A DNA stretch of 64,000 bases from Siphonodentalium dalli (taxonomy: Eukaryota; Mollusca; Scaphopoda; Gadilida; Siphonodentaliidae), in contig CP136063.1 in the NCBI GenBank assembly GCA_032622095.1, positions 211,439,982-211,503,981 of the forward strand. Reading direction: 5' to 3'. The position numbers were made by a program, and so were the translations under genes. Below are positions 9,190 through 62,513 of this stretch, piece by piece; position 1 is the first letter of the stretch, and every line of letters starts with the position of its first letter. The notes below the pieces were generated by a model. The model searched no databases and was not told the origin of the DNA. It saw nothing but the letters and a program-made list of their open reading frames with translations.

Positions 9190-9230
9190 CGGTGTTACAA
9201 TCTTATGTATATTACATATACATAAACATA

Positions 9231-9628: not shown

Positions 9629-9811
9629 ATAGCATAGGACTACAGTCCTGGTGTTTTTTTGTTGTTGGAATTACTATTGATCTCCCGGAGGATCTTTGGT
9701 GAGTTAATTTACAGCTTACCTCCATGTCATCGCCGATACAACTGACAAGCTATGTGAGTTGTTTTTGCATGGGTTTGAATGGTCTAAGGATGTCACTCCT
9801 CTAAATCCTGT

Positions 9812-11440: not shown

Positions 11441-11826
11441 TCTTGCATCAAAAGATCAAATCGTCAGATTGCCGTCACAGCAAGTATACCAGCCAAACTG
11501 GCTACTTCAGACGATAGGGTAAACAACAACTGGAGCCCTTACTCAGTGCTCAATGTTCCTGACCCCAAAGTTTACACACAGACAGACTCTTCACCTCAGC
11601 CTACCTCGGCGAGAGACGACATAAGCCGATAGCAAGGGGCAAAGAATAACATCCAATCTCCATCTCCAAGAAAGCTTTGTCAGAAAATAGCAGCGTTTGT
11701 TTTCATTAGATTCCAGTTGATAGCTCAGCTCCAGGCATAATACTTGGCTTGGAAAGAATAACAGTATTTTGTTCGGTAAACATAGGAATCCGTCTACATG
11801 GGAGATATAGACAGTGGTGCATCGTT
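11355..11826 (+). repeat. 472-bp segment, identical copy 2
   Basis: Identical by eye to 8,097-8,568. Here its left part belongs to a local tandem duplication, so this site is more likely the source and 8,097 the derived copy (inference). Confidence 0.8.
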
Positions 11827-17501: not shown

Positions 17502-17829
17502 CTAAAGCACCCAGTCGGAGATAGAAATTGATGCCTTCTCCGACATGCGCAACGCTGCCGTCTTGGGGTAACTCCATGTTGTTGGTGATGTCCGTGGTGA
17601 TTGACATCTGCTCGGCAGGTTTGTCTTGTCCCTTCTCGAGATTCTCCAGTCTCTTGAGATCAAGCTGTGGTGAACCCGGCATCGTGTTGATATTTTCCGT
17701 GCTTCGCCGGACAGTGACCCGAAGATTCGTGTCATAGTTGCCTCCCTTCGAGCTCACTCCCCGCAAGAGGGCGAGTTGGAAATAAATCAGGAACAATAGC
17801 GAGATGAGGTATAGATATAACAGGAAACC
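17502..17829 (-). CDS. otop: Otopetrin-like core exon 3 (TM2, cytosolic loop, start of TM3)
   Basis: 328-nt internal exon. The acceptor is TTTTCCTTTTTAG and the donor GCTTTAG followed by gtgagt. It enters in phase 0 and exits in phase 1. It starts with a clear helix (GFLLYLYLISLLFLIYFQLA), then has a hydrophilic loop of about 65 residues with mixed Asp/Glu/Lys/Ser (RRSTENINTM, LEKGQDKPAEQ). It ends EGINFYLRLGAL, the diagnostic otopetrin start of helix 3 (vertebrate members have a similar Glu-Gly-x-Asn-Phe-Tyr-Leu-Arg). The loop is the most variable part of the family and is expected to face the cytosol. A shorter overlapping reading frame on the same strand is a shadow. Confidence 0.93.
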
Positions 17830-18260: not shown

Positions 18261-18381
18261 CTCCAGATAATACTTATGTTCCCGTTCTGTGGCTGTAAGG
18301 GCATCGGCCAGTGAGAACACGATTCCCAGAGATATGAGGAACAGGGCGTACAGGCCGCATACCAGCTTGGTTAGAGCCGAC
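18261..18381 (-). CDS. otop: Otopetrin-like core exon 2 (TM1), common acceptor of alternative first exons
   Basis: 121-nt exon. The acceptor is GGTCTGCTTTCAG and the donor CTGGAG followed by gtaagt. One base completes a split codon from whichever first exon is used. Forty codons follow: SALTKLVCGLYALFLISLGI, then VFSLADALTATEREHKYYLE. This is otopetrin helix 1, whose family signature is a Leu-Tyr-Gly/Ala-x-x-Leu-Phe-x-x-x-Leu-Gly run. The exon begins in phase 2. Four separate upstream candidate exons (43.85, 48.75, 51.30 and 54.71 kb) end in the matching phase, each giving an open fusion (R-SALTK or A-SALTK). The intron to the next exon is only 431 bp. Confidence 0.92.
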
Positions 18382-22499: not shown

Positions 22500-25167
22500 T
22501 AATCATCTGGGGCGATTAGAATCACGATAATTGGTAACGGGATGCTGCACAACCTACCGCCGAGAGAGATAAGACAATAAATTCTCGTAGGAAGATAATC
22601 ATTGCAACGATAAACTCTCTGTGATGCAAAACACGCGTTAGCGTGATGCAAACCCTCTGAAGGGTGGAATATATATATGTAAATCTTCATATCGAGACAG
22701 CGGATAAGTGGCGACCATATTGACCATATCATAATTTGTTTATGCAAGTCATTATGCAGTAAATTCGCTTAACATCATCATTACCGCACCAGTTATGACA
22801 ACCAACATATTTAGTCGGCGTTTCGATGATCATATATGCTAACCAGATTCCTGCGCGCTGTTTGACGAAGATGCGAACACGATATGTGTCGATTTGTCCA
22901 ATGGTCACAACTCGGTGAAGGGATCATTGCTACTTGACGATTTCAGAGTTGAACGTATATGTCACTAGGTTGACATATTAGATAAACCAAATTAACGCTA
23001 TCCCGTTAATTAACCTGTCGGTAGCAATGAACAAGACTGAGGCACTAATAGGCAAGATCCACAACACCAAATGTTGTCCACTACTGTATGGTCGTTTCAG
23101 CATTTTAATACGATATAACAGCGACACCAAAAATAAAAGCAATGCGCTATAGGTTAGTTGACATTACGATACATCGTAGAGAATACAATGAGACCAGCCG
23201 ACAACTGAAATGCTTGTTACACCAACCACAAAGGGTTTCAAATGTGGAAGAATCTACATTTTGTTGAAAAATTAAGTTTCAAATCAAAGCTGAAAAATTC
23301 GAAATCGTTCTCGAACAAACGGTTGCAATTTTGGTGGGCTTCTGTATTATTCACTGAAGACCTAAAAAATTCTCATTTCTAACGACTAAAGCCCTTTGTT
23401 CTGACATTCGCGTGGTAATTATCCCCATTACTCAGCGCTATAAGCATCACCTAAGCTCGTAGCGAACACCTCTCAACGGAACTAGAGACTCGTAAATAGC
23501 CGGAACTATCTACTAAATCATTCAGAGGGTTACAAAGGCCACAAATCGTAACCAGGTACATCTAACCACCATCCAACATGAGCACTATAAATATGTTACC
23601 AGCTCGTCTAGATTCTGGACCATAATGAGTGTGTTGTTTGGCCACCAAACTGACGCCGTTTTGATGTGAGCAAACAACAGAAACGACCACCCCAATTAAC
23701 AAACCAACCATCACCAATTAATGGAAACCCAGATTTGAGAATTTATTTTCAAGCCTGTCTGAACAATGGGAGTCACAATGTGAGGGAAATAATATATCTT
23801 GGTGATGCAATCGAATCTTAAAATGCAAGTTCAACTGTCGCTATATAACATATTATTTGAAGTGCCCAAGAGACAAGAAAAGTTAAGAACCTGATATATT
23901 AAAAAATAAATATCGCCGGCACAATTGTTTGGCAATTATACATGAGTGTACAATTTGATGTCAAATATCATGCAGAGGAGTGGATGTGTGTGAATTCATG
24001 TGCCGGCAGACCAACGAACGACGGATGACCAGACCGGACGTTTATATAGTATAGAGTAAGAACTGGCTTGAGTAACAGCTTGAGTTTCAATAGCCTTGAC
24101 ATAAAATACAGATTGCGATTGGGTTACATGTTTTAACGACTTATGGAGAAATCGTATGAAAGGCATTGGTTAACAAGGCGGCCTTGTCGCCAGCTGAACT
24201 TATTTACATGGTGATATGTTTTGAAAATATATATAGTAATGCCTTCCAAAGTTCATCCACGGTGAGATTGTTGCCAAACTAATGTGAATGTATGCTTAAA
24301 GAGTGATATAAAATTTGCCATAAAACAACTTTCAACGTAATTGATATTAAATGATATGGCGTAGGGGTTGAATAGTTTAGATATTAATCTGAGTTGTGCT
24401 CTGGAAGCCAGAATCAGAAGGATCCAAATTACGCAGGCGTATAATGAAGATATTCGTCGTTTTACCAAACACATCTGGGATGAATTAATGTTTTGATGAA
24501 TAAATTTTTTTAAGAAGCTGACCCTTCGCGAATGTTGCTTCACATTAATTCCTACATAGATTAATGCTTGTATATCAAAGTACTTCTCGACTTGAGACAC
24601 AGTACGTAGAGTGGTTCGCGGAAGAGCAGATACGCCACAGTGCTCTAATCAGGCCGTTTATCGGTTATGCCGTCGTGCTGAGGAATCTCAGAAGATAGCG
24701 CTTATAAATGATGAGTTGGCATTAATCCTTTGATCATCACGCTATCCGAAAATTATGTTGTACATTACACTTGAGAAAAGAATGCTCGTTTACCGGCGGT
24801 CTTTGCCTGGTATCTGGGACAAACTCAAGAATCTTTAAAGTCATATTCTCAATGAATGCACGAGGCCTTTGAAGAACATAAATTATGTGCAACTTTATTT
24901 CAGTATATATTGTTAAGATATTTACACAATTTGTCGACATTTTGGCCTTGTGAAATGTAAGTAAGGGTCAGCCTTGTGATGTGAGCTAAACTGGACATAC
25001 CTGCACATCAAGATTACGTACAATATATACATGTACCTAATTCTGGTGCCACGAAATGCACGTCATTGGTAATAGATGTACGTTCGACAGGTGGAACATG
25101 CAAACAAATATACCAACGCAATATTGGAAATATTTTCGGGGATGCATGACACATATATGTCCTATAT
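22500..25167. other. Intronic sequence, nothing recognised
   Basis: Only chance frames (up to 115 residues on the minus strand at 24,253). A minus-strand donor near 25,000 (GTGCAG, gtatgt) could close a tiny ATG frame, but nothing else supports an exon. Confidence 0.4.
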
Positions 25168-25565
25168 TAACCCTTTACCCAACAAACCGGCCAAAACCGG
25201 CCAAATAAAGCTTCAACAGCCTAAAATATCTTCGGTCTGTCTCAATAGAACCATACAAATATGGATATCATTGGAACCGGCTCAGTGACCACATTGTGAT
25301 GGTTACGGTTATGCCCTGTGCCAATGCATTCTCTTATATATGCGAGTCGACCATAGGTCGCCTCGCATATATAAGAGAATGCATTGGCCTAAAAAAAAAA
25401 AAATTTTAACACTTTTTATCATTTTTTCTTACATTCTTTAACAATTTTATAATTTTTAATGTGTTAAGCCAATGCATTCTCTTATATATGCGAGGCGACC
25501 TATGGTCGACTCGCATATATAAGAGAATGCATTGGCACAGGGCCGTTCTGTTGGGTAAAGGGCTA
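25168..25565. mobile_element. 398-bp double-hairpin MITE, copy 2
   Basis: Same length and ends as the element at 9,231, with TA on both sides and a poly-A expansion after the first hairpin. Differs from the other copies at only a few positions, implying recent spread. Confidence 0.9.
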
Positions 25566-27793
25566 ACTATGTGTTAATTTATAAGATGGCGAATCACCAG
25601 CACCCCTCACGAGAAGTTTGATGACGAATTACATATATAACACCATTCCAATATATGATGTCATGGATGAAAATAAGTATAAAATATGAAATGCCTCAAA
25701 TTTCCAAAACTGTTACTTACCAGTGAAATATCAATCAATCAATCAATCAATTTATTATACTTTTACACCAAATATGGTCAAATGTATACATACATAATAA
25801 AGAAACATAATTTATAACAATGTAGTGAAAGGACATGTATTCATACGGTCATTTCTTTTCTCCCAGACCCCTGGATCCCATTCTTGACTCCCACACCATT
25901 GACCTTTGCAAGAAGACTATACAGTGTGGAGAATGTGTTGCCCATACATTTCGTACGACTATATATAGAGTTGCAGTCAATAATTGCAGACCAACTTACC
26001 AAGGCTTAAAGAAATTGGCGGGGTCTGTAAATATGCTCAACTCAAAAATATTTATGTATACACTGCCTATATGTATCTTGTTTAGCATGCGAATGTATAC
26101 ACCCTACATTGCTGGTCCATCCATCACGTCTCTTAGGAATATATATTTGCGGGGGACTTGTTCATGGTCAATATAGGTTATATACTTTTGCTATCCCCAA
26201 ACTACATTTATAAACATATTCGATAATAAGATACCGGTAAAATAGTGGTACACATACATGCACATGTTTACAAAAGTAAACATAACTCAGTTCATATTTT
26301 CTATTGTAATACTCACAAATTTATTTTAGAAATGACAAACTTGAACACCCCCATTTGCGAGGCTCCTAAAGAAACTGTTAGCGAAAATTGAAGGCGAATT
26401 ATATATCACAACACGGCGTTCATCTATCTGAACCCAGAAGCCAGCGCACGAAATGGGAATTACCAACTGATAGTATGATAACATTAAACTGAAATATGTT
26501 CTAAGTAACGGATGTTCATAGAAGCATGCTAACAAAGCTCCGGGGAGGAAATATCAAAGTTTATCTCAGATCTTAGATGTTGTGGAGCTTCTGTATCAAT
26601 ATTGAGGGGAAGGTTTACCTATATCATTTAACACGTGGCCTAAACGAGCAGCTGTGTTTATTTGTTTTTATGAGTACCAGCGGGGCCATTATACCGTACG
26701 CGTGTGAGCATGGCGCATCTCTCATTGCACGCTGTCGTTATTAATATTGAACGCCACAGGGGTCGGGTCTGCTACACGGGCGATGAGTGAGGTGGATGAA
26801 CATACAACAAGCATGGATTCATCAAATCATACTGGTAAAATATACACGGCCGATTGATGCTTACGCTGGAGAGAGATGATGATCAGAATGACGACGATGA
26901 TGATTATGATGATAATGATGACGACGATTATCTTCTTTTCTCAATATAGTTTAATGATATTTGGATCAAATAATAAAGAAATTAAGGATGTGACTGAACT
27001 TCAGCATACAGCAAGCACGGGGGGAGGGGTAGTCAAATAGTATATACATATAAAATAGTTAGATATGTCTGCCTATCTGTCTGCTCGCGATTTTTCTCCC
27101 AGACCCCTGGATCCCTGTTATATAAGTTTAACGGCGTTAGTTTTTTGTAAATATTTTGATTCAAAATGTATGATAAATTGAACAAGGAGTTCATTTAAAA
27201 AAAAATATTTAATTTTTGTTTTTTTTATTAATTGTTTTATTAATTGTTTAAACCAAATGCTTAAACTATCAAAATACTCCACTCCGGGAGCCTTTCTAAG
27301 ATCCGCAAGCCTCTAGTGCACAAAGGGACTGCACGCCCATTTCGGGAACCTGCCTCAGTTGGTAAATGTATACTTCAAGTAAAACATGCGGTGTGGATTG
27401 ATATCTCATACCGATTATGCAATTAACAACAAAAACAACAACAGAAATAACCGCAGCAGCAGCAACAACAATAACAACAACACCAACAACAACAATAATG
27501 CAGATATATTTGTCCGCAACCCTCTCTAGCAGAAACAGACTCACGATACTCGGAGTGATGCTAAGAGCAATTCTAAAATTTAAACTCACATGCATTCAAA
27601 GCTACACAGATCGGTGGTTCATTTCCATCGTATTTATTGGAGGGATCATTGTCAGTGTTCTAATCTACTGCCGGTCGTGCCCAACTTGAGAAACGGTTAG
27701 AAGTGTCATACCCAAATTAGTCTTCGTAAAATGTAAAGGTTATTGGTCGAATAAGTTTGGTACACTGTTTTCTGTTAGAAATAAGATTGTATT
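25566..27793. other. Intronic sequence with simple repeats
   Basis: Contains an ATCA tetranucleotide run (25,732-25,760), a GAT/GAC trinucleotide run (26,875-26,932) and an ACA/ACC-rich run (27,425-27,500). No exon recognised. Confidence 0.5.
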
Positions 27794-28191
27794 TAACCCT
27801 TTACCCAACAAACCGGCCAAAACCGGCCAAATAAAGCTTCAACAGCCTAAAATATCTTCGGTCTGTCTCAATAGAACCATACACATATGGATATCATTGG
27901 AACCGGCTCCTTGACCACATTGTGATAGTTACAGTTATGCCCTGTGCCAATGCATTCTCTTATATATGCGAGTCGACCATAGGTCGCCTCGCATATATAA
28001 GAGAATGCATTGGCCTAAAAAAAATCTTTTTTTAACACTTTTTACAATTTTTTCTTACATTCTTTAACAATTTTATAATTTTTAATGTGTTAAGCCAATG
28101 CATTCTCTTATATATGCGAGGCGACCTATGGTCGACTCGCATATATAAGAGAATGCATTGACACAGGGCCGTTCTGTTGGGTAAAGGGTTA
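27794..28191. mobile_element. 398-bp double-hairpin MITE, copy 3
   Basis: TA-flanked, same architecture as copies 1, 2 and 4. One arm base differs (CATTGACACAGGG in place of CATTGGCACAGGG). Confidence 0.9.
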
Positions 28192-29090
28192 ATAAACGTA
28201 TAACCACATCGAGCTACATGGATGTGAACATAAAAGAACAGCGAATCACCACCGATACATGGTCTTCAAATAATAAGTCGGGTGGTAAAACTCTGACATA
28301 AAATTTATTCCTGGTCAGAAAACAACATGTTCACAACAGCTGCCAGAAGCCCAGAACTCTACACACATGTTATCAATAGCGGAGAAAACATAATTACGGA
28401 ATCCGATGTTTTTTATTGTTTCTGACCACAAATAACGCGCCGTAAATTCCTTCGTCATATTGTAGGTTACAAATTCATACCAACGAACACAAGCGCTTCA
28501 ATGATATCCAACAAGCTATGTTGGCAGATGCCGAACCTCACAACATTAACTTCCGTTAGGAGGTTTTTCGATGCTGCGAGCGTTATTTCTCGGTGGACAC
28601 ATGTGGATACAGTTACTCCATTGTTTTTACCGATATAATGGCACTGCCAATGACAGAGACATGTTTTATCCCTCAGTCATAATGATGCATAATAGATGAA
28701 TGAGCGTCTTATACATGTATTATGTCATGTTATGGCACATCATTTGAACAAGATCATCCCTTACATAAATATGGCATTTGTGAAATTGTGAGAGGGGAGA
28801 ATTTGTTTACTTTTCTCACCTACAGCATATTACAAATTAATATTTGGCAGTACATATGTACGATTTATAAATCAAACAATAAATGAACTTGTCGGTTACT
28901 TATCATTAGTTTGACAAAAGATGGTGTTTATTCGTGAAAGCTGATCTGGTATTGAGAGAAGTTAGGAGAACACAAACTAATATGTTTAAACTGCGTTTTT
29001 CACCAAGTAACCTCTCATTTGCTGTGAAACCAAATTACGATTACAGACTCAGTATAATATATTGATGATTTACAATAAGTCTTCAGTTTA

Positions 29091-29822: not shown

Positions 29823-30050
29823 GTTTGGAATCGTGTCCATAGCACGGGCATGTGTGCGGTTATAAACTCTACCCCATTTTTACCGAAATGTGTGCATAGA
29901 ACGGGAAAGAAGGTTCGTTTTAATTTATACGGCACATATAGCAAACGCGTGACAAAAATAGTCACTTTCCTTATTATGAGACATGCAAGTTCTGTCAATA
30001 CAACCACACCCTCCGATCGACGTTTTTGGAATCGTGTCCATAGCACGGTG
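29823..30050 (+). repeat. 205-bp unit seeding the minisatellite
   Basis: TTGGAATCGTGTCCATAGCA occurs at 29,825 and again at 30,026. Between them is one divergent 44-bp monomer (GGTTATAAACTCTACCCC) and a spacer (GTCACTTTCCTTATTATGAG) that reappears after the array at about 32,250. Confidence 0.8.
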
Positions 30051-32187
30051 ATATGTGTGCATGGTTATAAACTGTACCCCATTGTTACCGATCGATACGT
30101 GTGCATGGTTATAAACTGTACCCCATTGTTACCGATCGATATGTGTGCATGGTTATAAAATGTACCCCATTGTTACCGATCGATATGTGTGCATGGTTAT
30201 AAACTGTACCCCATTGTTACCGATCGATAGGTGTGCATGGTTATAAACTGTACCCCATTGTTACCGATCGATATGTGTGCATGGTTATAAACTGTACCCC
30301 ATTGTTACCGATCGATATGTGTGCATGGTTATAAACTGTACCCCATTGTTACCGATCGATATGTGTGCATGGTTATAAACTGTACCCCATTGTTACCGAT
30401 CGATATGTGTGCATGGTTATAAACTGTACCCCATTGTTACCGATCGATATGTGTGCATGGTTATAAACTGTACCCCATTGTTACCGATCGATAGGTGTGC
30501 ATGGTTACAAACTGTACCCCATTGTTACCGATCGATAGGTGTGCATGGTTATAAACTGTACCCCATTGTTACCGATCGATATGTGTGCATGGTTATAAAC
30601 TGTACCCCATTGTTACCGATCGATATGTGTGCATGGTTATAAACTGTACCCCATTGTTACCGATCGATATGTGTGCATGGTTATAAACTGTACCCCATTG
30701 TTACCGATCGATATGTGTGCATGGTTATAAACTGTACCCCATTGTTACCGATCGATATGTGTGCATGGTTATAAACTGTACCCCATTGTTACCGATCGAT
30801 ATGTGTGCTTGGTTACAAACTGTACCCCATTGTTACCGATCGATATGTGTGCATGGTTATAAACTGTACCCCATTGTTACCGATCGATATGTGTGCATGG
30901 TTATAAACTGTACCCCATTGTTACCGATCGATATGTGTGCATGGTTATAAACTGTACCCCATTGTTACCGATCGATATGTGTGCATGGTTATAAACTGTA
31001 CCCCATTGTTACCGATCGATATGTGTGCATGGTTATAAACTGTACCCCATTGTTACCGATCGATATGTGTGCATGGTTATAAACTGTACCCCATTGTTAC
31101 CGATCGATATGTGTGCATGGTTATAAACTCTACCCCATTGTTACCGATCGATATGTGTGCTTGGTTACAAACTGTACCCCATTGTTACCGATCGATATGT
31201 GTGCATGGTTATAAACTGTACCCCATTGTTACCGATCGATATGTGTGCATGGTTATAAACTGTACCCCATTGTTACCGATCGATATGTGTGCATGGTTAT
31301 AAACTGTACCCCATTGTTACCGATCGATATGTGTGCATGGTTATAAACTGTACCCCATTGTTACCGATCGATATGTGTGCATGGTTATAAACTGTACCCC
31401 ATTGTTACCGATCGATAGGTGTGCATGGTTATAAACTGTACCCCATTGTTACCGATCGATATGTGTGCATGGTTACAAACTGTACCCCAGTGTTACCGAT
31501 CGATAAGTGTGCATGGTTACAAACTGTACCCCATTGTTACCGATCGATAGGTGTGCATGGTTATAAACTGTACCCCATTGTTACCGATCGATATGTGTGC
31601 ATGGTTACAAACTGTACCCCATTGTTACCGATCGATATGTGTGCATGGTTATAAACTATACCCCATTGTTACCGATCGATATATATAGGTGTGCATGGTT
31701 ATAAACTGTACCCCAATGTTACCGATCGATATGTGTGCATGGTTATAAACTGTACCCCATTGTTACCGATCGAGAGGTGTGCATGGTTATAAACTGTACC
31801 CCATTGTTACCGATCGATATGTGTGCATGGTTATAAACTGTACCCCATTGTTACCGATCGATATGTGTGCATGGTTATAAACTGTACCCCATTGTTACCG
31901 ATCGATAAGTGTGCATGGTTATAAACTGTACCCCATTGTTACCGATCGATATGTGTGCATGGTTATAAACTGTACCCCATTGTTACCGATCGATATGTGT
32001 GCATGGTTATAAACTGTACCCCATTGTTACCGATCGATATATATAGGTGTGCATGGTTATAAACTGTACCCCATTGTTACCGATCGATATGTGTGCATGG
32101 TTATAAACTGTACCCCATTGTTACCGATCGATAGGTGTGCATGGTTATAAACTGTACCCCATTGTTACCGATCGATAGGTGTGCATG
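30051..32187 (+). repeat. 44-bp minisatellite, about 48 copies
   Basis: Unit GTGTGCATGGTTATAAACTG followed by TACCCCATTGTTACCGATCG and ATAT. Units are nearly identical; recurrent variants are GGTTACAAAC and GATAGGTG, and two units carry an ATATAT insertion. 44 is not a multiple of three, so the frame cycles and the 77-residue frames listed in it (HGYKLYPIVTDRYVC...) are artefacts. Each unit contains the palindrome CGATCG. Confidence 0.95.
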
Positions 32188-32310
32188 GAACGAGAACGAA
32201 GGTTCATTTTAAATTACAGCATATACAGAACATTCATGACATAAATAATCACTTTCCTTATTAGGAGACATGCAGTTCTATTAATACAACCCAACCCTCC
32301 GATCGACGCC
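32188..32310 (+). repeat. Distal flank repeat of the minisatellite
   Basis: Matches about 29,900-30,022 (CACTTTCCTTATTAGGAGAC; ACCCTCCGATCGACG). It closes the duplicated unit in which the 44-bp monomer was amplified. Confidence 0.75.
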
Positions 32311-43850: not shown

Positions 43851-44530
43851 CTTTTTCCTCCCATCACGTGATCCCAGTTGACACAAGGACACCGAATAGG
43901 GCATGCTGGGAAGGTAAACTTCTTCCGCGGCATTGGCTCACGTTCACCCAAATGTCCATTTTCGAATCCATTTTCCGTATCCGTGAATTTATTCTCATAT
44001 TCCGGTTTGGCTTCCTTTGGCTTCTTTTCTTTCTTTGGTTTCTCCTTCTTTTCTTTCTTTTCTTTCTTTTGTTTCTCCTCCTTTTGTTTGGCTGGTTTTT
44101 CTGGTGGTTGCTCGGGAACGGGAGCCTCATTACTTCCATTCACCAAAGGTTCAACCGGTGGATCCTCAATCGGAGGTTCTGGCGACTTTGCCTTCTTGGG
44201 CTTCTTGGGTTTTGGCGTCTTCTTTATTTTGGGTGGTCCAGGCGAAGGTTTCTCTTCTACCAGAGGTTCCGGCGTTATTTCGTCAACAGGAGGTCCATTT
44301 TCCACAGGTGTGGGCGTGTCCTCTGTCGCGACGGGGACAGGCGCAGGATTCTCAATTGGGGCGCTGTCGTCTGCATCGGGTCGCGCTGAAACGCCCGGAT
44401 GTGGCGTGTCATCCTCAACACCGTTCATCTCGTCAGCACACTCTGGGTGAGTAACTGTATAACAACCGTCCGCCTTCTGCTGCTTTCCCTTGGTCGGCAG
44501 CAATTTGCGGAACTTGTTGAGCGACTGCAT
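43851..44530 (-). CDS. otop: Otopetrin alternative first exon, long Pro/Glu/Lys-rich N-terminus
   Basis: Initiating exon of 226 codons plus two bases. The ATG has A at -3, and an in-frame TAA lies just upstream, so this is a true start exon. The donor is GGAAAAAG followed by gtaagt. The split Arg codon joins the exon at 18,381 to give VMGGKR-SALTKL. The peptide is low complexity: Asp/Pro/Ala-rich at residues 20-95, repeated PEPP/EDPPVEP motifs, a KEEKQKKEKKEKKEKPKKEK block around 150-170, and a Cys cluster (CPIRCPCVNW) close to the membrane-entry helix that could be lipidated (inference). Otopetrin N-termini are cytosolic, so this tail would lie inside the cell. With the core the protein would be 774 residues. 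Strong pyrimidine bias makes long shadow frames on the plus strand. Confidence 0.85.
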
Positions 44531-47500
44531 AATTAGTTACGAATGTTTGTAAATCCTCAATGAAAGGAGATCTCGGCAGACTGGAGTAACGCGCAGGCTA
44601 AGCCAAAGTATCAAAATAAAACCGGCCTCGCAAATAATCCCGTGGCATCTGCTAGAAGATACCGGCGTCTGTGAAAAATCTGCTTGTCAGAATTTTAACT
44701 GCTCGGCGCAGTCAGGAATAACTTCCTTAAACACCGAGGTTGCTTCTTAAAAGATAACAACGAACAGCCATCAACAGAGGGAGTGTTGTGGAATATTTGC
44801 TGCGGAGCTTGAAAACATGACCTCCCGTATGTCAGATATCTGTAAAAGACTGTAAGCACTGGCTATTTGCTTATCTCTGCAGATGTTTTATTAACTGGCT
44901 ATCACCAGGTAACGGACACGTGCAGTTTGAACTCTGCTCCTCAGACTCATGGGAACTCGGAGCCGACCAACCAGAAGACGACATTTGATACTTTTGAAAT
45001 TAACTTGACCTGATGCACTATGTTCAGTATGTTGGAGTCGGATATCCATTGGCACTTCTTTTGAATTCCATTTGTTTCTTTTTATCTTTTGTTTTAACAT
45101 TATAGCCAGCATACTGTTTTTGTAATCGGGATCCTCTTGAAGTTCACGCATGCGCAATCCTCTATTTTAATATTTAAATATGGCCACATGCGTCGGATAT
45201 CTTTTGGATCGACCGATATGGCAGATTGAAATCATAACATTCAAGGAATCGTGCATAAACGCAATTAATATCGATGCACGTGCCACCAAAAGAAGCGTCA
45301 TGTTGCGAAATCTTCCGGCACTGAAGTGATTAAACGGATGCAACCCTAATCAGTTAAGTATGATCCACTCACGTTGGAAAATTTATGTGGTTATATATTA
45401 AAATCGGTTTGTTGAACTTTGGTCCAAGATGATCATTATTAGAATGAGATTTTGACTTGCCATTTTGCACTAAATATGATTAAAACGTATATAAAAGTGC
45501 ATTTCTGAATATTGTGGCCCATTATAATTGTATGCATTACCCGGGAAGTCGGATCTATAGACACCGAAATAATATAATTCGACAACAGTCGAAAGCAACC
45601 ACGCATGCGCAAGATGGATAACAAGGCTACATTTCTAGTCCGATGTGAAGCTTAATGTCAAAAAGATCAGATTGTGTCACTCAAATGCCACTTTTTATGC
45701 ACTCTCGATCGATCATCGTTGGTGGAATCATCGCCATTTGTTTACCGGAGATAACTTCAAGAATTATAGTAAACAGTCACAATTGTCTGATGTTCGGACG
45801 CTGTGTTTTCTAAAATTCAGTCTACGATGGTGTGGTTGCAGTTATCGGAATTTGACAATATTGGGTTCAATGGTACATTATTCCAGTAGGCATACAAGAT
45901 ATCACTTTCATGCACCGAAATGAAATCTCAGTCCATTTTTTCGACAGTCTATATCGTTTTTTTTCCGAATGAGCAGTTTGCACATCAAGTCGACATTCTG
46001 GAGTCAGAATGTCCATGCCTCCGCAATGTATGCACAATGCCCCCCCCCCCCCCGAGAACAATGTGTTCTCTTCTTGACAGTGGTAAGCAGATCACTTGTG
46101 CACCAGCAGAGATATTATATTCTAATATATCTGGTGACAGGGCTGTCAACAACTGAGATTACAACAATAGAGTTACTGTTCTTTTGACACAATACAACCA
46201 GTTTCCCCAAATACAGATACTCACATCGACATTATATACTGCGCATACAAATGTACTTTGTATATATTACGCACATAATAATTACATCATAGCTCAATGA
46301 CAGCGGAAGTACCACCACCGAACATGGTATACTAAGTATCACGATACCTACATGTTAGGGACAGAAAGCATAGATATATGCCCTTTATGACAACTGATCG
46401 ACCAGTAAACTGCCAATTTTTATGAAAAGTCGATAGATATCTGACCATCAAAACCTCAGACGAAGACGACGAAGTGGCCCATGCATGGGTTTTATTTTTT
46501 ATTATTTTCCCGTTTATATAACATGTATAAGAAGTATATGATATTTTCCAGTATATTGTTGAGGTAGGATTATCTAACCTCGAAGAAAGGTGAGAGATCC
46601 CTGTGCTTAGTTTGGATAACAGCCACCGACGCAACGATTCTGATAAGTGGTTATTCTTAATATCAATCACATGAATAACGAAGCACAGGTGAGAAATTAC
46701 GATAGTAAATGAAATTCGGGCCAGCGATAACCAAGGACGTCAGTGAAGTTTGTGTGATGTTGGAATAACCATTAGCACCGATACTGTATGGTAACCGAGG
46801 GCTTATAATAGTCTCGCTGATTAAAGGTGTACCAAAGCAGTCAATTAGGTGAGCAATGTAGCCTAAGCAACACGTCGATCACAGCATATCATCTTTGTTA
46901 TAGAAAACTCGTTTGATGCAAGGAATGCATATTTGTACCATATAACACAGTCAGCTAAAACGCATACAGATTGCTCGAAAGGTTGGTCGACAAACATGCT
47001 GACAACTCGTTTCCCATCTATATGTCAATGTCAACATCCAAGACAAATTACATTATCATCAGACAGATGGTACGACCCATAGCCCGTGGTAATGGGGTGA
47101 ATTATTAATGGACCTATCCGTACGTACCGCCCACCAATAGGATACATGGTTACTGTTACTAAGCACCACAAGCCATCTCAATCTCGCTACATATTCATTA
47201 CTAAAATGGCTTCCGATGAGAACGGACTGTGTCGTTAAACGCCATGTAACACGATAATATAGCTTCTTTCTGAGTTTCAGGATTTTCAAGATACCTATGT
47301 TTGTATATATGCATCTTGTAAAAATAGAACCAGATTTAAACAAAAAACCAGGTGTGATTGTTAGGCCATTTCCGGTAACCAACAAAGGTCGATGTTTACG
47401 TTGAATCAAACTGTGTAAATGAAGCCATTATATAACCTCAATGTCAAATAGCTAATTTAATATCGAAGCTATGCTAATAGTTCACACCTTGATGAAATAA

Positions 47501-48751
47501 ACCAAACGGAGGTGTACATGTGGTAATTAATCTATAATCCCTCTTTTGTCGAAATAAATATAACGATATCAGATTCCCATACCTCGAGCGCATGAGCCTC
47601 GGTGACATTAGACCGGATGCAAAGGATTATCAAATAATGGTCTTTTAAAATTCCACAACCTATTTTGCCGCCACTAAAGTACATTAAAGAAAACGCCGAC
47701 TATCATGGAGTCAGTTACATGTTGCCATGATTGTGGCAACAATGGCACAAAGTGAACTCGTTCGGTGAAGGTTGCGTGTATACATACACCGCACGTAGCA
47801 CGTGCAATGTGTGAAATATCGTGTAATTCTCTTGGAAAACATCTGTTGATTCTCATTTACACGTACATTGTCGCATTAATATTGAGGAAGCGTTAGATTA
47901 TCAAATGGATTCAGTAAAATGTTCGCAGGAGATCCTACAGGTTAGTGTGAATAGCAGATATTTGAACACAATATTACCACGGTTTTATAACAGCAACACA
48001 TGTATACATTTATAACGAAAACACTTCACATAAAACAAATACTCGCGGCACAATTAATATTCATAACGCATCATCGATCGATTTTTATTTAGGAAACCGA
48101 ACTAAAACATGTGTATAAATATCGTTCGTCAACCGGACATGTTCCCCATGTACATTTCAACACCATTGTAGCTTTTTAACACATATTTTGCTCTAGTGTT
48201 CGTAAATTTCCTATGGCTTACAATGGTTGTTAAGGAGCCGCTTGTGGTGTCTTTCATATCACTAGGCAGGCACATGTCGCTTCGGCGATTAAGCTATCGG
48301 CTCATTGGCTATAATTGAAATTGGGGCGGTACCTACGGATAGGTCCATTCCAAGATGGCTGCTGGCGGCTATGTTTTTATACCAATTAACCAAAAATTAC
48401 AGATGAAAATTACTCAAAATTTCAAAATGACACAACCAAAGATACGACCTGTAGCTAATGGAATTGTTCATGGATGCACACATACACACACATGAACGAC
48501 AGATACACATGGCAATGGCTTAAACTTGACTTTTTAAATTGAGCTAAAAAATAAATGGGATATGAGAACAGCTTATGTACTTACCTCGTTACTTTGAGCG
48601 TTGCCCGAGTATAAGATCGTGTGAGTAAACTCACATATTCGCTAAATTTTAAGAGCAGACTAACATTTATATGCAGCAGTGAAAGGATTTGCGTGCCCGC
48701 CCGAAGGGCGGCACAAGGACGGTGATGGGCTCATCCGAAGATCGCCCTTAC
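44531..48751. other. Sequence between alternative first exons
   Basis: May include the promoter of the 44,530 first exon, but no convincing core element was identified. A C14 tract lies at 46,040. A minus-strand ATG-to-donor frame at 47,583-47,608 is considered and not adopted. AAGATGGCTGCTGGCGGC occurs at 48,353. Confidence 0.4.
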
Positions 48752-49414
48752 GCCCTGTCTTGAATATTCTTGTGTCTTGTATCTTCATCAGTCAGGCCGC
48801 GGGTCGGTGGATCAAGTGGAGTGGGACTTAGCTGCTGTTGGATTTTTTTTCTTTTTCTTGTTTTCTTTTCGTTTCTTTTTTGGTGGTGAAGTACAAGATG
48901 GTGATGGATGTGAAGGCTCGTCTTCATCTGAGGTGTCTTCCTCGTAGTCGCCGAAAAATTCACGTATCGTGAGAGGTCTATGTATGGTAACCTTCTCTTG
49001 GGTTGAGAGTGAAGGCTCATCTTCGTCTTCGATGTCACTACGGTACCTCCCATGGATCCGGCGACTTCTGCTTTGGTTGGGGACGAAGGCTCCGGCTCGA
49101 TATACTCCGGAGTCTTCGGGACGAAGTCAGAGGTGTCCTCGTCTTCGTCATCCTTGTCTGGTCGTGGTGGTGATGGTGATGGTGGTTCCACCTCCTGGAC
49201 AGACTGGGCCGGGGTTTCAGCTGTATGGGCGGAGTCGACTGGTGAGTTTCCGTCGACTTTTTCGCTTTCCATGCAGCGAGCCTCTCGGCATCTCTTTTTT
49301 TTCCTTGATGGTGTTTTCTTCTTCTTCATCTTGAGTCTAGGTTTCCGTGCTGATCTCGTTTTTTCCCGGTCCACTCCCGATAGAGAGCCCTGACAACGGC
49401 TGTGCCGGGCCGGA
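48752..49414 (-). CDS. Candidate otopetrin alternative N-terminal exon (charged, Lys/Glu/Ser/Pro-rich)
   Basis: Open for 221 codons without a stop, bounded by a good acceptor (GGATTTTCAG at 49,415) and a possible donor (AGGGC followed by gtaagg). The frame that ends in phase 2 also begins in phase 2 and the length, 663, is divisible by three. It could therefore be a cassette inserted between another first exon and the core exon at 18,381. No ATG opens the frame: GTG stands at 49,374, and the first internal ATGs are in RLKMKKKK and RCMESEKV. The first half is lysine-rich, then acidic (DKDDEDEDTSDF, PEYIEPEPSSPTK). The second half reads better in another frame (SDIEDEDEPSLST, FFGDYEEDTSDEDEPS), which suggests compensating frameshifts or sequence errors. 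A second donor-like site at 48,585 (AACGAG, gtaagt) has no usable frame. Role inferred only from position, phase and composition. Confidence 0.5.
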
Positions 49415-50073
49415 CTGAAAATCCAGAATCAACTGGTATCGCCTTTATGAGCGTGGAGTGACCAGCTCAGACAAGGCGTGACATGCATGGCGTCCAGCAT
49501 ATTGGTGACACTAATTGGGATTAGCGGTGGCGAGTTCATCCTGAGAGGTGGCGATCCAAGTTCTCTGGAGGTCCGACTGCTAATTGATAACGACGACGAA
49601 TGATGATGATGACGATGATGACATTTATATGCTTTCAGAATGGCCCTATATATAGTGCCGAATTGTCGTCTTGTAAATTGTTCTCACCTTTAGTGCATGC
49701 ATATTGACGTTGGAGTATAGTGCATGGATATTCTGTCGCCAAAAAATCTGCTTGTTTATATTCAATTTCTTTGCTGTTTGAACTGATATACTAGTATACG
49801 ATGCCAATTATTATATATGTTGTATTAATTTTCAGTCACTTAGGGTAGATAATACGTAAAATAATGACTAACGATTGTATTGTACTGTATGTATGTCTAC
49901 ATGATTCTATTGTACATCATGTATGTCTACATGATTGTATTGTACTGTATGCATGTCTACATGCAGTCACGAGGTGTGTTCAGACTAGTGTTCCAATGGG
50001 TATATTACAGTATATACAAAATATATTCAGGACAATGCCAGACTTACAATTGACAACAATAGACACTGTCACT

Positions 50074-50300
50074 AACTCGCGGCCATATTTGATCCACCAG
50101 GCCCGGTTCCGTGTTTTTAGTCTACAGGTCAATGTTCTGGAGTAGCATTTCCATATATGGAAGTCACGAATATTCAAAAGCTCAATATATGGAAATGCTA
50201 CTCCAGAACTTTGACCTGTAGCACTAAAACCACGGAACGGGGCTGGATGAATCTCTGAAACCATGGAACGGAGCTGGATGGATCCAATACGACCGCGACT
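50074..50300. mobile_element. Foldback MITE, CGCGGCCATATTGGATCCA family, copy 2
   Basis: Same ends and inner hairpin as 21,977-22,206. Inner arms GGAGTAGCATTTCCATATAT and complement are nearly perfect. Confidence 0.8.
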
Positions 50301-50360
50301 CATCATGCAGTGATCTCGCTTCTAACCACAGATTGTGCTTTGCTGGGAATATGTGTTTAG

Positions 50361-50602
50361 TACCCTTTCTTTACTATACTGATTCTCCCATTCAGTTATA
50401 AAAATACATCGGAATGGTTTATAATTTATCTGGAATGACGATTAAGACTGAAATATAAGCGGACGACAAATAATACAAGTGCAGAAGGATTCTTATTCAT
50501 TGCTGGGAAAAGTTCGTTAACCGTTTGTTGAAATAATTATCTAGACATTTCATGAGGGAATTATATTCGATAATGCGTATATTTATAGTGAAGAAGGGGT
50601 TA
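50361..50602. mobile_element. MITE with ACCCTTTCTT / AAGAAGGGGT ends
   Basis: TA-flanked short inverted repeats. Interior shares CCATTCAGTTATAAAAATAC and GTGCAGAAGGATTCTTATTC-like segments with 55,812-55,985, 57,673-57,790 and 58,420-58,545, so it belongs to a dispersed family. No coding capacity. Confidence 0.6.
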
Positions 50603-51295
50603 AAACAAATGCAAGACAGGAAAGAGAATTATGCTATAGTTACATAATACAAGAGTTCGTCTTTTACTTATGATCTTTATGATCTAAATGCCCCAACTTC
50701 GCACATAGCTCGGTGTTTTATTTGTATTATAGCATCCGACAAAGGATCAACAGAATATCACAGCCCTGACAATGAAATGCGTATAGCGAACATTCAGATG
50801 GTGTGTTGTAAATGTAGAATCATGCTTCGGTGAGTAGTAGGACACTTATTTATGATCATGCAATGTAGCAGCTAGGTGATGTCATAAGCGCAAATATATA
50901 CTGTGCATGTCGAGTTTTTTTTGTCTCCTTCGTTCATGAGCCACCACAATAAGCAAATCATGCTGGTGATTTAACGAATGAATTCGTTGCAGAATACTGG
51001 CAAGCAATGACACAACAGCATTATATATGTTTGTTTCTTCGTCTTCTGTGAGTATATTGCTAATATATAGTTCTCCGTTTGTGGGTAAAAGTCCACTCAT
51101 TCATAAATGAGAACGTCCCTTAAAGACATGTATGAAGAGAACCCGTTATTATGACCCAGAACATTCAACGTATCTTTCACAAAAATCAATGAAAGTCAAT
51201 CTTTTGAGAATGTTGAAATTTTAATATACACACGTACAACACGTCGCTGAACTACAAGGCGATGATGATGACAACACGAAGCCGTCTACATGTAC

Positions 51296-51363
51296 CTGTA
51301 ATATTCTTCGTCTTCTTCACACTCCAGGGTGAACACGGGGAACCCCACCCATGTGTGATTCAT
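51296..51363 (-). CDS. otop: Candidate otopetrin alternative first exon, short acidic N-terminus
   Basis: Short exon, only 22 codons plus two bases: MNHTWVGFPVFTLECEEDEE followed by YY. It ends TATTACAG before gtacat, in phase 2. Joining to the exon at 18,381 gives EEDEEYYR-SALTKL. The last residues (YYR) match the end of the first exon at 54,706-54,944 (HAYYR), which supports a real exon rather than chance. The ATG has A at -3. The frame stays open upstream into an acidic stretch (EASEEEERC) until a TAA near 51,437. The resulting channel would be 570 residues with almost no N-terminal tail. Supported by sequence logic only; transcript evidence is needed. Confidence 0.55.
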
Positions 51364-54300
51364 TGTCCACGAACGGCTCGGACACCTCTCCTCCTCCTCT
51401 GAAGCTTCCGGGTCTCGATGCGTTAAACTTTAGAGAGAACGAAAATATCGGTACACTGCATGTGGATGGACGGGTGGGGGCGGAAGTAATTATTTGTACG
51501 CATTTTCGTAGTACGTTTATTATAAGCGGAGTATTATTATACTGTCATGACAATAGGGGACAAAACTAGGTCACCAGAAAACGATTTAATGAAGGTATAA
51601 TAACAAAGCCGTGTAGATCGATTTCAACATATATGTGTCACCGATAATAACTGAGGGTATTATATATAGAGCCCAGGTTCGGTGAATAGCTGTTTGAAAA
51701 CAAATCTGGCTACTCGTTTGCGCGAAATTAGTATGTTTTTTGTTAGACTGTCCAATGTCCGTACCCGATTCGGGACAAATTTGGTAAAGAATTATATAGT
51801 GCTTATATATCGAACCACCTTTCGGTAGTTATTTTACGAGTGTTTGCGAGAAAATATCATAATTCTACTCATCATTCCAACTTATTTGCTCTTTATCGTC
51901 CTCGAAGTACAGTACTAAGAACACGCGTACAGATTGTTACTTCCGTTCATCCACAGTGGTACATAAAACAGAGGCAGTTTAGTAAAATACGCAGGGAGAG
52001 CTTGACCCGTTTTCGTGGACTATATAACCACTGTTTGGCGATCGACCAATCGGAAAGCTTCCGTGTTGGGTCGCTTATACGATATATTCGGTTGTTGAAA
52101 GGGAACAAAATAAATATTTGTTTCGGAATCGGATCTCAAAAGTCACGTAAATAATGTAAATTCGAGCTGGGACATTCGCCCACTGCATGGTGTATACATT
52201 ATTAAGCAACAGGTATTAAAAACGAAATACATTCACCGCGTTATTATTCGACTTTATCAGGTTCTCTGTCAAAACTTAAAAAAAATTCCCAGATTTTCAA
52301 CGGATGGAATATGAGCGGGCGTTAGCCAGCGTAGAGATTCTTGGCATGAAATACGTGACAGTCAGATAGGGTGTCGAGGGACAGAGATAACGAAGAGACG
52401 GTGAAATTTGGGTCCAATTGCTCCCATAACTATGTGGCAAAATACCATGTGACCGAACTAGCGATTAAGAGCATACACAAAACATATTTGTAGCCTGCAT
52501 GTGAGACCCTCCACCTTTCGTTGTGAAATCTTGTTTATCTCCACATGTATGACGTTATAGTGTATTGGAGCCATATATATATAGATTTGACATAACTCAC
52601 TTCAGAAAGCATACAGTCTGATATCAACCCCTCGCGCTTAAATTATTGATCTGGTCAATAAAAACTCGGTGAACATACATGGAATAGAGCGTGTGACTGT
52701 TCAATTTGAATACACTAATATTTTCATCTGAAAATACCTCATTGTCCTCATAAAATATTTCCACATTCGGATATTCTCAATAATATTCTGGAACAAATTG
52801 CTTCGAATATCACCAAGGTGCAAAACATTACTGACAAATCAAACTTACCCCCTAATATATTATTTTTATTTTTCGAAATGGACATTAATAACTCATGTCG
52901 ATGTTCGATGGCCCCCCCCCCCCCCCCGTGCATGTACGTATACCGCTCCCCGTGGTATACGTTATCAATGATTTGCCGTTCGATATAGATATATATCTTG
53001 GGCAGTGATGCTGAAAAAACACAACCCCCAATTAAACAATAAAGGAATGTGACTATATATGTATGAGCAACCAAAACGCCAAGGATCAGATATAACAGAA
53101 TAGCTAATCGGGGTTGGTATTCAATCTGGGTAACAGATATTTAAAAAATGAGTACCGCTATCTAGATTTAATCGAAGTAGAATTTTTATCTTGACTAAAT
53201 AACGAAGATAATCAGAAATAAAAAATAATATTAATAACAACAAAATTTAAAGAGCTTTTTTTTCTCTTTGTTTTTTAAAGAGATTTTAGGATAGTTTTTA
53301 ACAGAAGAACTGATTTTAATATCGCGTGTCCCCTGTTGCTCAGATTGAATACCAATCGCTATCTAATCGTGACCCCGATTTAGTATCTTTCGCTATTCAA
53401 TCGCGTGCGTGTTATGTGATATGAGAGAGCGTATCTCGTCAATACACTAATATTTTCAACTGAAAACACCGCATAAAATATTTCTGCATTCGGATAATTC
53501 TAATAATATTCTAGGATGATTTGATTCGAATATATTCTCAGTACAAATAAATTACTGGAAACTTAATGTTAATATCTCATTATCACATGCGCATATTATC
53601 AATGCTTTGACGTTTATAAATAGACATTTTGGATATAAATGCTGGCAAAAAACAACCGTCAGACGGGTTAAATAAATAAAGGAACAGTACATTGATTCTC
53701 CAGACGAGCACAGCAGATCACCTCAGTTAGATTACGAATCCATTAAATACTTCAAAAACTTCGAGTGTTTATGGTGCGAGATAAAATAGAATCTGGGAGT
53801 ATGCATCACCCGTGGGTACATTTGATTTATCGTTGGATCTCAGGGTACATTTTATATATCAGCGGTAGTATGTTTCACGTCAAAGGCCGAATACATATAG
53901 ACTAACTTGATTACCACCAGAGAACTTCAGTTTGATGTAAACATCGAAGAAACAACAGGCATGATACGGTCAACTGGTCTTGCTATATAATAAGGCAAAT
54001 GTTATTGGTATGTCATCTTGATTTATTTATTATATAGGTCCCATTGGGGGGGGGGGGGGGCGCAACATAAATTACCAACATTGTGAAATTATATTTACAC
54101 CCATCCGTTTGAATTGAAACGAAACTCTTCCATTGTAAGTCCAAGGTTTCCAATTGCCAACAAAAAGAATACATTCATCAGCAACAAGTCCTAAGAAAAT
54201 TAGACTTTTTATCTCCAAAATCAGACATTCATATCAAAATCGGAAATGTTTATTTGACTCGGAAATGACTGAAAATCAATTGAAAGTAACTATTTCATTT

Positions 54301-54423
54301 ATTATCACGTAACAGTTATGTCCAACGTCCGGCTTAAGATTACGAATTTCCATTCTTTTTTATTTTCATTGGAACAATTTGGAGGAGTGCGACATACAAC
54401 CCTGTCAATTTTGTTTGGCAATT
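51364..54423. other. Intronic sequence between first exons
   Basis: No exon found. About 52,705-52,800 and 53,440-53,530 are diverged copies (ACACTAATATTTTCA...CTGAAAA, ATTCGGATA). C15 tract at 52,913; G13 tract at 54,048. Confidence 0.45.
53097..53398. mobile_element. Inverted-repeat element of about 300 bp
   Basis: Left arm AATCGGGGTTGGTATTCAAT, right arm ATTGAATACCAATCGCTATC...CCCCGATT. The interior is AT-rich and non-coding. Confidence 0.55.
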
Positions 54424-54536
54424 TGTTTGTATAAATACTTAAGGTACATTAAATTACATTAAACATGTTCAATGTAAAGCAATTACATTGAACATGTTTA
54501 ATGTAATTTAATGTACCTTAAGTATTTATACAAACA
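54424..54536. repeat. Perfect 113-bp palindrome (54-bp arms, 5-bp loop)
   Basis: TGTTTGTATAAATACTTAAG begins the left arm; the right arm is its exact complement, with loop AGCAA. Lies 170 bp downstream of the donor of the first exon at 54,706. No other copy seen in the window. Confidence 0.9.
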
Positions 54537-54705
54537 CATCACAATGGAATTGACGCACACGTTTTTACAACTTCATACAGCATTGTTCACTTTAGTCATG
54601 CTATATTCGAAATAAATACATTAAAAGTAAATCTTCGGATACAGACATAGTGATGAAGAATATGACACGGAAACTGAAATGGAAATTACATGATGTTGTA
54701 CACAC

Positions 54706-54944
54706 CTGTAGTACGCGTGTATCTTTTTCCCAAACGAATCATTCCGCGAGCTGTCAACCGGAAGTTCGGCCATATTGGACCCTGTATCTTCTGGTGATTT
54801 AGATTTGCTTCGTTTCGGTGGTGATGGTTCGGGTGTTTTCGGCTTCGGTCTGTCGGGTTTCTTCGGGCATGGACCGTTTGTAGACTGAATCAGATTAACG
54901 TCATCCTTTGGTTCATTCACTATGTATACACCCGATCGCCGCAT
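54706..54944 (-). CDS. otop: Otopetrin alternative first exon, Pro/Lys/Ser-rich N-terminus
   Basis: Initiating exon of 79 codons plus two bases, with G at -3 of the ATG and an in-frame TGA 24 bases upstream. The donor is TACTACAG before gtgtgt, in phase 2. Joined to the core it reads GKKIHAYYR-SALTKL, giving a 627-residue protein. Composition is basic and proline-rich (KKPDRPKPKTPEPSPPKRSK), with several SP/TP sites that could be phosphorylated (inference). A good acceptor (TTGAATTTCAG) lies just upstream at 54,971, so the exon may follow a non-coding 5' exon. A strong donor at 57,074 (CAACCAG, gtaaga) is one candidate for that. Frame residues listed beyond the donor (CVQHHV...) are intronic. 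Confidence 0.8.
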
Positions 54945-55811
54945 GGCGTGGAATGTATTCCAATATCACACTGAAATTCAAATAATCCAAAAATGTTGTA
55001 AGATTTTCTGCAAAAATTCAACAATTCACTATAAATGATAATCCACGCATTACACACAGACATCAACCTTTCACTATCTCCTATACCTCTTTGAATAATT
55101 TGTGATTTCATACGAGAAAGCCTATAGATGATGATTCTCTCGTAGTTTGATATGGGAGACATTAATAGATATGAGGTACATGAAGATAAATATTAAAAAT
55201 TCCAATTAATGTCAAGAATCTGGAGATAAAGACACCAAGGGAGGATTCGATTTCATCTAACGTTGATAGGAAGGAATATGTATCACAGGGGTACCAATAA
55301 AGAAGACCTCTTATAAAATTAGGTGTTCTCGGGTTTTCATTCGAGATAGCGCAACATTGGCCAGGTATTTTGTTAAGCAACAGTGAGAGATATCATCTGC
55401 AGGTGAACATGTACTGGAAATAATGAGGGGAAAATAACACAATGTTTGTATAGACAACGGGGTGATCTGGTTGGCCGACGGTGCGTCTTTGATAAGATAA
55501 TCGGCTGATCAGTGCGACGTCTAGCAGACGAGACATATGCATCTCGAGCAGGGGCATGGTAACAGCTCGTAATATCATGCGTGCCAGAAGTATATCGACT
55601 ATTATTGGAAACGTCAGGTTCTAAAATAGGTTGTTCTGATGTTTTAGTCTTCCAATTGACCAATTCAGTGTAAAATTAGTGTTTTTAGACCAAGATTTGA
55701 AAATGTTCATCCGACCGAATATTGACTTACAGTATAATGCTCCCAGAACCCGTTAGATTGCCTTATCGCACAGAGAAGCACTCATGTGTTTGACTGAAAT
55801 ACGTCAGCAGT

Positions 55812-59830: not shown

Positions 59831-61581
59831 AGTCTATTTTTATTTGAAGAGTTCAGTGAAGTGTTTACATTTATTTGAAGAATCTATTATTGTTATGTTT
59901 TCATTTATATCAGGTTGAATAAAAATGATTTTTAATAGAACTATTTAAATCTGAGCCTTTCCATGCCAATGTGCATTGATAGATCCTTGATGAAAACATT
60001 TAGCAAGCTGACCTTTTATTACCCATTGGTGGCATCCCTCATTATTGACTGACGGTGAACTCAAACCCCCTACCAAGAGTTAAGTACATACCTATTACAT
60101 AATAACGAACCAAAGCCGGACGCGTTGGGTCGTATATAGACTATATCTGATTTTGTGACGTCACCAATTATTATCTAATACGACACTGCTGTTTTGAATT
60201 TTTGCGAGCGCTTATGTCGCACAGTAGATCGGTGGGCCTAAAGCATTAATGTCGTAATCTGAAATAAACGTGTGCGTCTTTCCATGGCCGGCGTTTCAAA
60301 ATGAGGGGAGTTACTATAGGAATTATGCACAGTGAAGTTATTCGTATATAATTGCGGTTTAGATTTTATTGAGAACATAATTATAACATATTATGGACAG
60401 TCAAATATTTGCATTGGAGTGGCCTAAAATATAAACGTCGCGTGCAATGAGAAACTCTCGATCACTCTGGCTGGGCTGGGGACAATACTGGAATCGAAAT
60501 CGAAATTCGTGATGCAAGCAAGCGTTATTATAACGCGTTTAAATTATCCTAATATTACATAGCGCATACGTGAATATGATAATCCTCAGATATCCTTATA
60601 TTTTCATGAATCGACAAGAAACACATACTTATGAACAAATCAGAAGATACATTCAGGTTATCGCAAATTCGGTCGATGGTGAAAGCTACATGATGACGTT
60701 GTTCGACATGTTTCGTTGAAATCGACATGATGGCATTTTATGAAATCGACAAGCTTCTTCGTATAGTACACATCTAAATCGAATTGCGCACACAGCGTCA
60801 ATATTATAATGCCAACAGTCTTGACTTTTGAAAACTTTCAGTTTGATGTTGGTATATAGTTTATATTCTGTAATAATTTGTTCAAGATGAACGGCTTTAA
60901 AAAAAAAAATTATTTAGGTTTTAAGTCTGAGTCGGTGAGCTCGTAGTCTGTTTGCATTGTGAATCACTGATTTATCACATGCCTTGATGTATGATATGAA
61001 TGACCTAATTTATACACGAAATTGCCATATATAGGACCCACTCTGTCGATGAACCCTAAGTGCATGTCTGGCGTGTAATATATCATCACACCACGATATA
61101 AGGCCTAAGTTAATCTTATTTGATGGGAATACGCATCTATGAAGTTATTTTATAGGATTAAAAATGCGTGTGTTTTAGCTGTGGTTCGTTAATTACGCTA
61201 GCGTATGGTCATATTATAACCATTCTTAAAACCTTTTGTCCAATTATTTCGAAGAAAAATTACTCCAGGAAAAAATATACAGGGCCAGGAAAAATTGTGT
61301 AAGCCGGGATGCTGAATCACCCACCCATCCCCGCCTGGTGATCGGAAAAAATGGAGACACTCCCCCTGGCCAGGAAAGTAAACACGACACTGTCTAGTAT
61401 ATTGAGGGAATAGTGAAATCCCACTCTATAGAAAGGGTTACACTTATTATCTGAACATTCCTATGGGATAACTGCTCATCATCGATGATTTAGTAAAAAT
61501 ATTATACTTGGCTGACCCGAATGGTTCGAGGAATCACCAGGTCTGAATGAACATTCAAGAACGTATATATTGTAAATTATT

Positions 61582-61978
61582 TAACCCTTTACCCAACAAA
61601 CCGGACAAAACCGGCCAAATAAAGCTTCAACAGCCTAAAATATCTTCGGTCTGTCTCAATAGAACCATACAAATATGGATATCATTGGAACCGGCTCCTT
61701 GACCACATTGTGATAGTTACAGTTATGCCCTGTGTCAATGCATTCTCTTATATATGCGAGTCGACCATAGGTCGCCTCGCATATATAAGAGAATGCATTG
61801 GCCTAAAAAAATCTTTTTTTAACACTTTTTACCATTTTTTCTTACATTCTTTAACAATTTTATAATATTTAATGTGTTAAGCCAATGCATTCTCTTATAT
61901 ATGCGAGGCGACCTATGGTCGACTCGCATATATAAGAGAATGCATTGGCACAGGGCCCTTCTGTTGGGTAAAGGGTTA
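61582..61978. mobile_element. 398-bp double-hairpin MITE, copy 4
   Basis: TA-flanked, 397 bp, nearly identical to copies 1-3. Small differences include GGACAAAACC for GGCCAAAACC near the left end and GGGCCCTTC near the right. Confidence 0.9.
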
Positions 61979-62513
61979 AATAATCGCTGCAATATCAGTC
62001 ACATTGATTATGGTCTGTTTTCATCAATAAGTGCAGTCATTATATAATGTATACAATAAACGTTATCGCGAAAGTGGTATATATATGGTGTTGTATATCA
62101 AATTTCACATACAATTAGTTTTTTATAGCCAGGAAAAATAAAATGACACTGACTATATAGTATCTAGGGAATAGTGAAATCCCAAAATCCCCACACAAAC
62201 TCTCATTTGATTCCACCCTCCAGCATATCTATTTAGTTCACCGCGTCTACGTGTAACTGGTAACCATTGTTTTTGGCGTAAAAAGAAGATTTAAATAAGC
62301 CAAAAAGGTTTAATAGAATTGCTCATTATAGAAGGACCATTAAACCAGGAGTGATACTCACTTCCTCACTGCATTCAGAAACAATCAAGAGAACAGCATT
62401 CTGTACGGGAGGTAATTCCACAGGTAACATTATTAATGGGATTGAGACGGAACTTTATGCACTCAAATGATATTTGATGGTGCATGTGTGCCACCTAGGT
62501 AGATATGACTTAC

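Follow-up and report, generated by a model that had tools for sequence, protein, structure and literature searches.

A 64-kb stretch of the Siphonodentalium dalli genome (64,000 nucleotides of contig CP136063.1, here C3, positions 211,439,982 to 211,503,981; hereafter the window), taken from a 2.23 Gb assembly in 9 contigs, carries an otopetrin gene on its minus strand. An earlier sequence-only reading of the window had taken the product for a proton channel, and its matches place it in the otopetrin proton-channel family: the gene product matches the Pfam profile PF03189 with an E value of 7e-99 (332 bits, against a curated cut-off of 27.8), and the six distinct PDB sequences of solved structures that match at E<=0.001 are all named otopetrins, the best being 8ug4 (E 1.6e-36). 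The core of the gene, from the first transmembrane segment (TM1) to the stop codon, consists of five minus-strand exons whose phases match in succession. These are core exon 1, which holds TM1 (18261-18381), core exons 2, 3 and 4 (17502-17829, 10661-10821 and 5309-5453), all three placed by phase fit and the coding scan, and core exon 5 (3733-4622), placed by its acceptor and the coding scan and closed by a TGA stop codon at 3,735-3,733. No relative of the last exon turned up when viral contigs were scanned.

The start of the gene lies elsewhere. The TM1 exon opens at 18,381, directly after the acceptor TTTCAG/G, with one G that is the last base of a codon split in phase 2. This acceptor scores 4.4 and the four core donors 9.2-11.9, splice scores being calculated throughout from site frequencies and codon scores from average amino-acid frequencies. 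A gene start just before TM1, with the acceptor read through, was rejected, as the coding segment opens there (at 18,389). With the coding signal of the core beginning at that point, the start codon has to come from a first exon. We propose that the five core exons are probably joined, through this one phase-2 acceptor, to one of at least two, and possibly three, mutually exclusive first exons, 25-36 kb upstream, which would furnish the channel with different N-terminal tails.

All three candidates lie on the minus strand, begin with ATG and end at a phase-2 donor. Exon A (54706-54944; 79 codons and 2 nucleotides) encodes a basic tail rich in SP and TP and ends at ACAG/GTGTGT; exon B (51296-51363; 22 codons and 2 nucleotides), which is uncertain, encodes an acidic tail and ends at ACAG/GTACAT; exon C (43851-44530; 226 codons and 2 nucleotides) encodes a tail rich in Pro, Glu and Lys and ends at AAAG/GTAAGT, its open frame closing immediately past the donor GTAAGT. 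Joined to 18,381, these frames remain open for 627 (A), 570 (B) and 774 (C) codons. Coordinates, frames and splice phases agree with those of the sequence-only reading, as do the tail lengths of 226, 22 and 79 residues that it had given; it had noted an in-frame stop upstream of two of the ATGs, and we find one before all three, 24 (A), 69 (B) and 9 (C) nucleotides away. The donors differ in strength, with scores of 12.0 for exon C (reached by 0.05% of GT dinucleotides), 10.1 for exon A (0.35%) and 6.3 for exon B (3.3%).

Because the exons stand in order on one strand and their donors share a phase, they might instead be read in succession within one transcript, producing a single long tail. 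We consider this highly improbable, given the in-frame stops 9-69 nucleotides before each ATG and the results of an acceptor search, which covered scores above 3 in the three exons and the 400 bases upstream of each. Only two such acceptors were found, 275 and 309 bases before ATGs, both leading into stops, and none lies inside the exons; hence we think it unlikely that the first exons are spliced to each other. Taken together, the upstream stops and the lack of good internal acceptors indicate that the first exons are mutually exclusive, which in turn points to separate transcription starts.

In codon score, exon C reaches +94 bits and is the best coding segment of the whole window, and its donor too is by far the strongest, while exon B scores +5.2 and exon A +1.6; five other frames tested in the window score between -3.6 and -16.9. 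Among random open noncoding stretches matched in length, none of 300 reached the value for exon A and 0.8% of 5000 that for exon B. A codon-based scan, covering both strands, lists a segment (51,414-51,304) that overlaps exon B. Length and donor strength were compared with chance by counting ATG-to-phase-2-donor frames on the minus strand between 18.4 and 64 kb (donor score of 4 or more required, and one frame in a dispersed repeat, described below, included): 30 have at least 20 codons, 4 at least 60, 3 at least 75 and 2 at least 150. Against this background the 226-codon and 79-codon exons are conspicuous in length and in donor score, whereas the 22-codon exon is indistinguishable by form from frames produced by chance.

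In a rival explanation only exon C is a real first exon, and exons A and B are untranslated leader exons or chance frames. Exon C is the nearest of the three to TM1 and exceeds the others in coding score and donor; the donor of exon B is weak, the codon score of exon A is near zero, and 30 frames of the required phase occur in the same stretch. The strong donor of exon A, its 79 open codons and a codon score above all of the random stretches argue the other way, as does the comparison of genomic copies described below, and we regard this explanation as rather unlikely.

The DNA of 54,600-55,100, around exon A, matches the genome only at its own position and in a second copy of the locus on contig C5; the same is true of exon C searched as protein, and the DNA around it has only 14 short genome matches besides the two locus copies. 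The tails of A and C show no similarity to one another (E 0.73), and NCBIfam matches of two of the tails (E 0.29 and 0.056) fell far below the cut-offs and were discarded. Some 170 bases downstream of the exon A donor, the intron contains an inverted repeat of about 120 bases (54421-54539). Near exon B, a dispersed repeat (51481-51897) comes to within about 117 bases of the ATG on its upstream side, with short opposite-strand matches at that end; with 40 out of 338 candidates scored, at least 46 pieces of it occur besides the two locus copies, and the longer pieces are about 67-77% alike.

The second copy of the locus provides a yardstick of divergence. The window is collinear with C5:192546938-192619191, where 58,840 of its 64,000 bases align and 979 of these differ (1.7% mismatches), with many insertions. 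At sampled points the collinearity extends over about 154 kb (C3:211.401-211.555 Mb and C5:192.511-192.672 Mb); beyond the window, samples just to the left were 86-94% alike, and similarity was also found in samples 37-39 kb away on that side and 46-51 kb away on the other. The C5 copy may be either a recent duplication or a misplaced haplotype, and in either case the background can be gauged from noncoding DNA. Between the copies, 2 of 987 positions differ in the three ATG exons and 7 of 1642 in the core, against 948 of 55,634 in noncoding DNA (Fisher values of 8e-6 and 3e-6). Exon C has 2 changes in 680 positions and no insertion or deletion, one change being silent and the other replacing Q with P; exon A has none in 239 and exon B none in 68, and four of the seven core changes are silent. 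The donor GTs and the TM1 acceptor are identical in both copies, the exon A donor differing at the fourth intron base, and all three frames join TM1 free of stops in the C5 copy also. For exon A the identity extends into the 300 bases upstream, which together with the exon show no difference, against 41 of 993 positions in the next 1 kb upstream; this is the comparison that speaks against exon C as the only first exon.

The sequence-only reading had offered a fourth first exon at 48,752, and we have dropped it. Its frame does end in phase 2, like those of the ATG exons; it lies, however, inside a dispersed repeat some 0.9 kb long (approximately 48671-49602, minus strand), recognized by genome matches and outside the gene. 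Searching with 1,051 bases around 48,752 and scoring 40 of 953 first-look candidates returned at least 59 pieces, including the window and the C5 copy, on eight of the nine contigs, and those longer than 500 bases, the window aside, are 76-89% alike. The C3 and C5 versions of the proposed exon are set apart by 22 mismatches in 577 aligned bases, 14 insertion or deletion events and 83 unaligned bases.

Exons A and B, whose joining to the core is predicted, might alternatively belong to another gene on the same strand. The coding scan, however, returned 26 segments of at least 14 bits, among which are all five core exons, exon C as the highest, the 49-kb repeat, many shadows on the opposite strand or in other frames and a few weak segments; none of the 26 looks like another gene within the window, one extending past it being still conceivable, and we think this alternative improbable.

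The phase-2 acceptor has counterparts at two further otopetrin loci of the genome (C5:31.12 Mb and C9:118.4 Mb), which supports the proposed reading. At both of them TM1 opens with a single G after the acceptor, which implies a preceding intron of the same phase. The C5:31.12-Mb locus has a candidate first exon at C5:31151773-31152176, with an ATG, 134 Ser/Asp-rich codons, a phase-2 donor AT/GTAAGT scoring 7.6 and a codon score of +20 bits; a second candidate, at C5:31127847-31127950, has 34 codons, phase 2 and +2.9 bits, a score reached by 1% of 5000 random stretches. A possible candidate at the C9 locus (C9:118437700-118437791) has 30 codons, phase 2, a donor score of 9.6 and +7.5 bits. Phase-2 frames 20 codons or longer number 27 and 41 in the same scans of these two loci.

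Several results weigh against alternative first exons, or weaken the evidence offered for them. The 48,752 repeat frame scores +49 bits, so that a high codon score alone proves little, and the score of exon A is only +1.6 bits; the coding scan, moreover, shows the region of exon A on the reverse strand only and not on its own. The Fisher values are overstated because neighbouring sites are not independent. When mismatches and insertions or deletions were counted in noncoding stretches of the same length placed at random, 1.5% did as well as exon C, 6.7% as well as exon A and 35% as well as exon B; the same test applied to the five certain core exons gave 43, 10, 32, 36 and 0.8%, which marks it as a weak test for short exons. 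The copies diverge little anywhere in 50-55 kb, whether in exons or not, and the 1 kb of intron downstream of exon A (4 differences in 994) is not significantly different from the exon itself. Beyond the otopetrin core, no other Pfam family was matched by the 627-residue form or by the 226-residue tail. At the C9 locus the most protein-like first frame has 75 codons and an ending in the wrong phase (1), and the three tails of the window show no convincing similarity to anything at the two other otopetrin loci (best E 0.37).

The divergence test thus helps exon C, helps exon A a little and is no help to exon B. Considering length, donor strength, the near-identity of the two copies and the phase-2 acceptor at the other loci together, exon C is very likely to be a real first exon and exon A fairly likely, and exon B is uncertain. 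The idea that alternative first exons swap the N-terminus of this channel, which the sequence-only reading had put forward for four exons, therefore survives in reduced form: it is likely overall, well supported for exon C and fairly well for exon A, doubtful for exon B and lost to a repeat at 48,752.

Elsewhere in the window we note an array of 48 tandem copies of a 44-base unit (96% matches) at 30050-32188, between the first exons and TM1. A 0.4-kb repeat occurs at 9228-9629, 25167-25566, 27790-28192 and 61580-61979, several copies being present on C5 also; positions 1749-2149 of the sequence L043 belong to a 0.4-kb family represented at 36 or more places with 96-97% identity, 40 out of 7550 candidates having been scored. 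A stretch of 0.47 kb is present twice, at 8097-8568 and about 11355-11826, flanking core exon 3 and containing identical frames (8159-8371 and 11417-11629); the C5 copy of the locus apparently does not have the 8097-8568 stretch.

If mutually exclusive first exons are used as proposed, each would have its own promoter, and the transcripts would encode channels that share a pore and differ in the tail. The N-terminus of Xenopus OTOP3 is inside the cell (PMC6483595), and by analogy the tails described here would face the cytosol. Judged from composition alone, they are probably unstructured and may act through partner binding or phosphorylation, so that exchanging them would alter the localisation or regulation of the channel and not its pore; the effect on trafficking or gating that the sequence-only reading had suggested would likewise be conjectural. 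A single proton channel would then come with tails that differ in charge and widely in length, and this would permit a clean test of the role of the otopetrin cytosolic N-terminus, on which the passages on otopetrin structure and gating available to us say little. We suggest, more tentatively, that the phase-2 acceptor before TM1 may be an old docking port of otopetrins in this lineage, which each paralog keeps while recruiting its own, unrelated and disordered first exons; were this so, the cytosolic tail would be a module open to exchange in evolution, and the pore would remain constant. Among the titles listed in literature searches, none concerns alternative first exons in otopetrins.

Isoforms of Drosophila OtopLa differ at the N-terminus. 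This protein is an otopetrin described in several isoforms, including isoform A (PMC8211824). Among proton channels of another family, the long and short forms of Hv1 differ only at the N-terminus and, as a review reports, respond differently to PKC phosphorylation (PMC10157179), although there a shortening by 20 residues is concerned and not an exchange of unrelated tails. A parallel in gene structure is offered by KChIP and DPP6/DPP10, in which alternative first exons or promoters generate variable N-termini (PMC3973911). The variable N-terminus, cytoplasmic in DPP6/10, is placed on a constant core, which in DPP6/10 holds the transmembrane part. These proteins serve Kv4 channels as auxiliary subunits, and their variants are backed by transcripts, whereas in S. 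dalli the variable tail would be carried by the channel itself, known so far from its sequence. In its anatomy, the proposed arrangement is a further case of the known alternative-first-exon kind.

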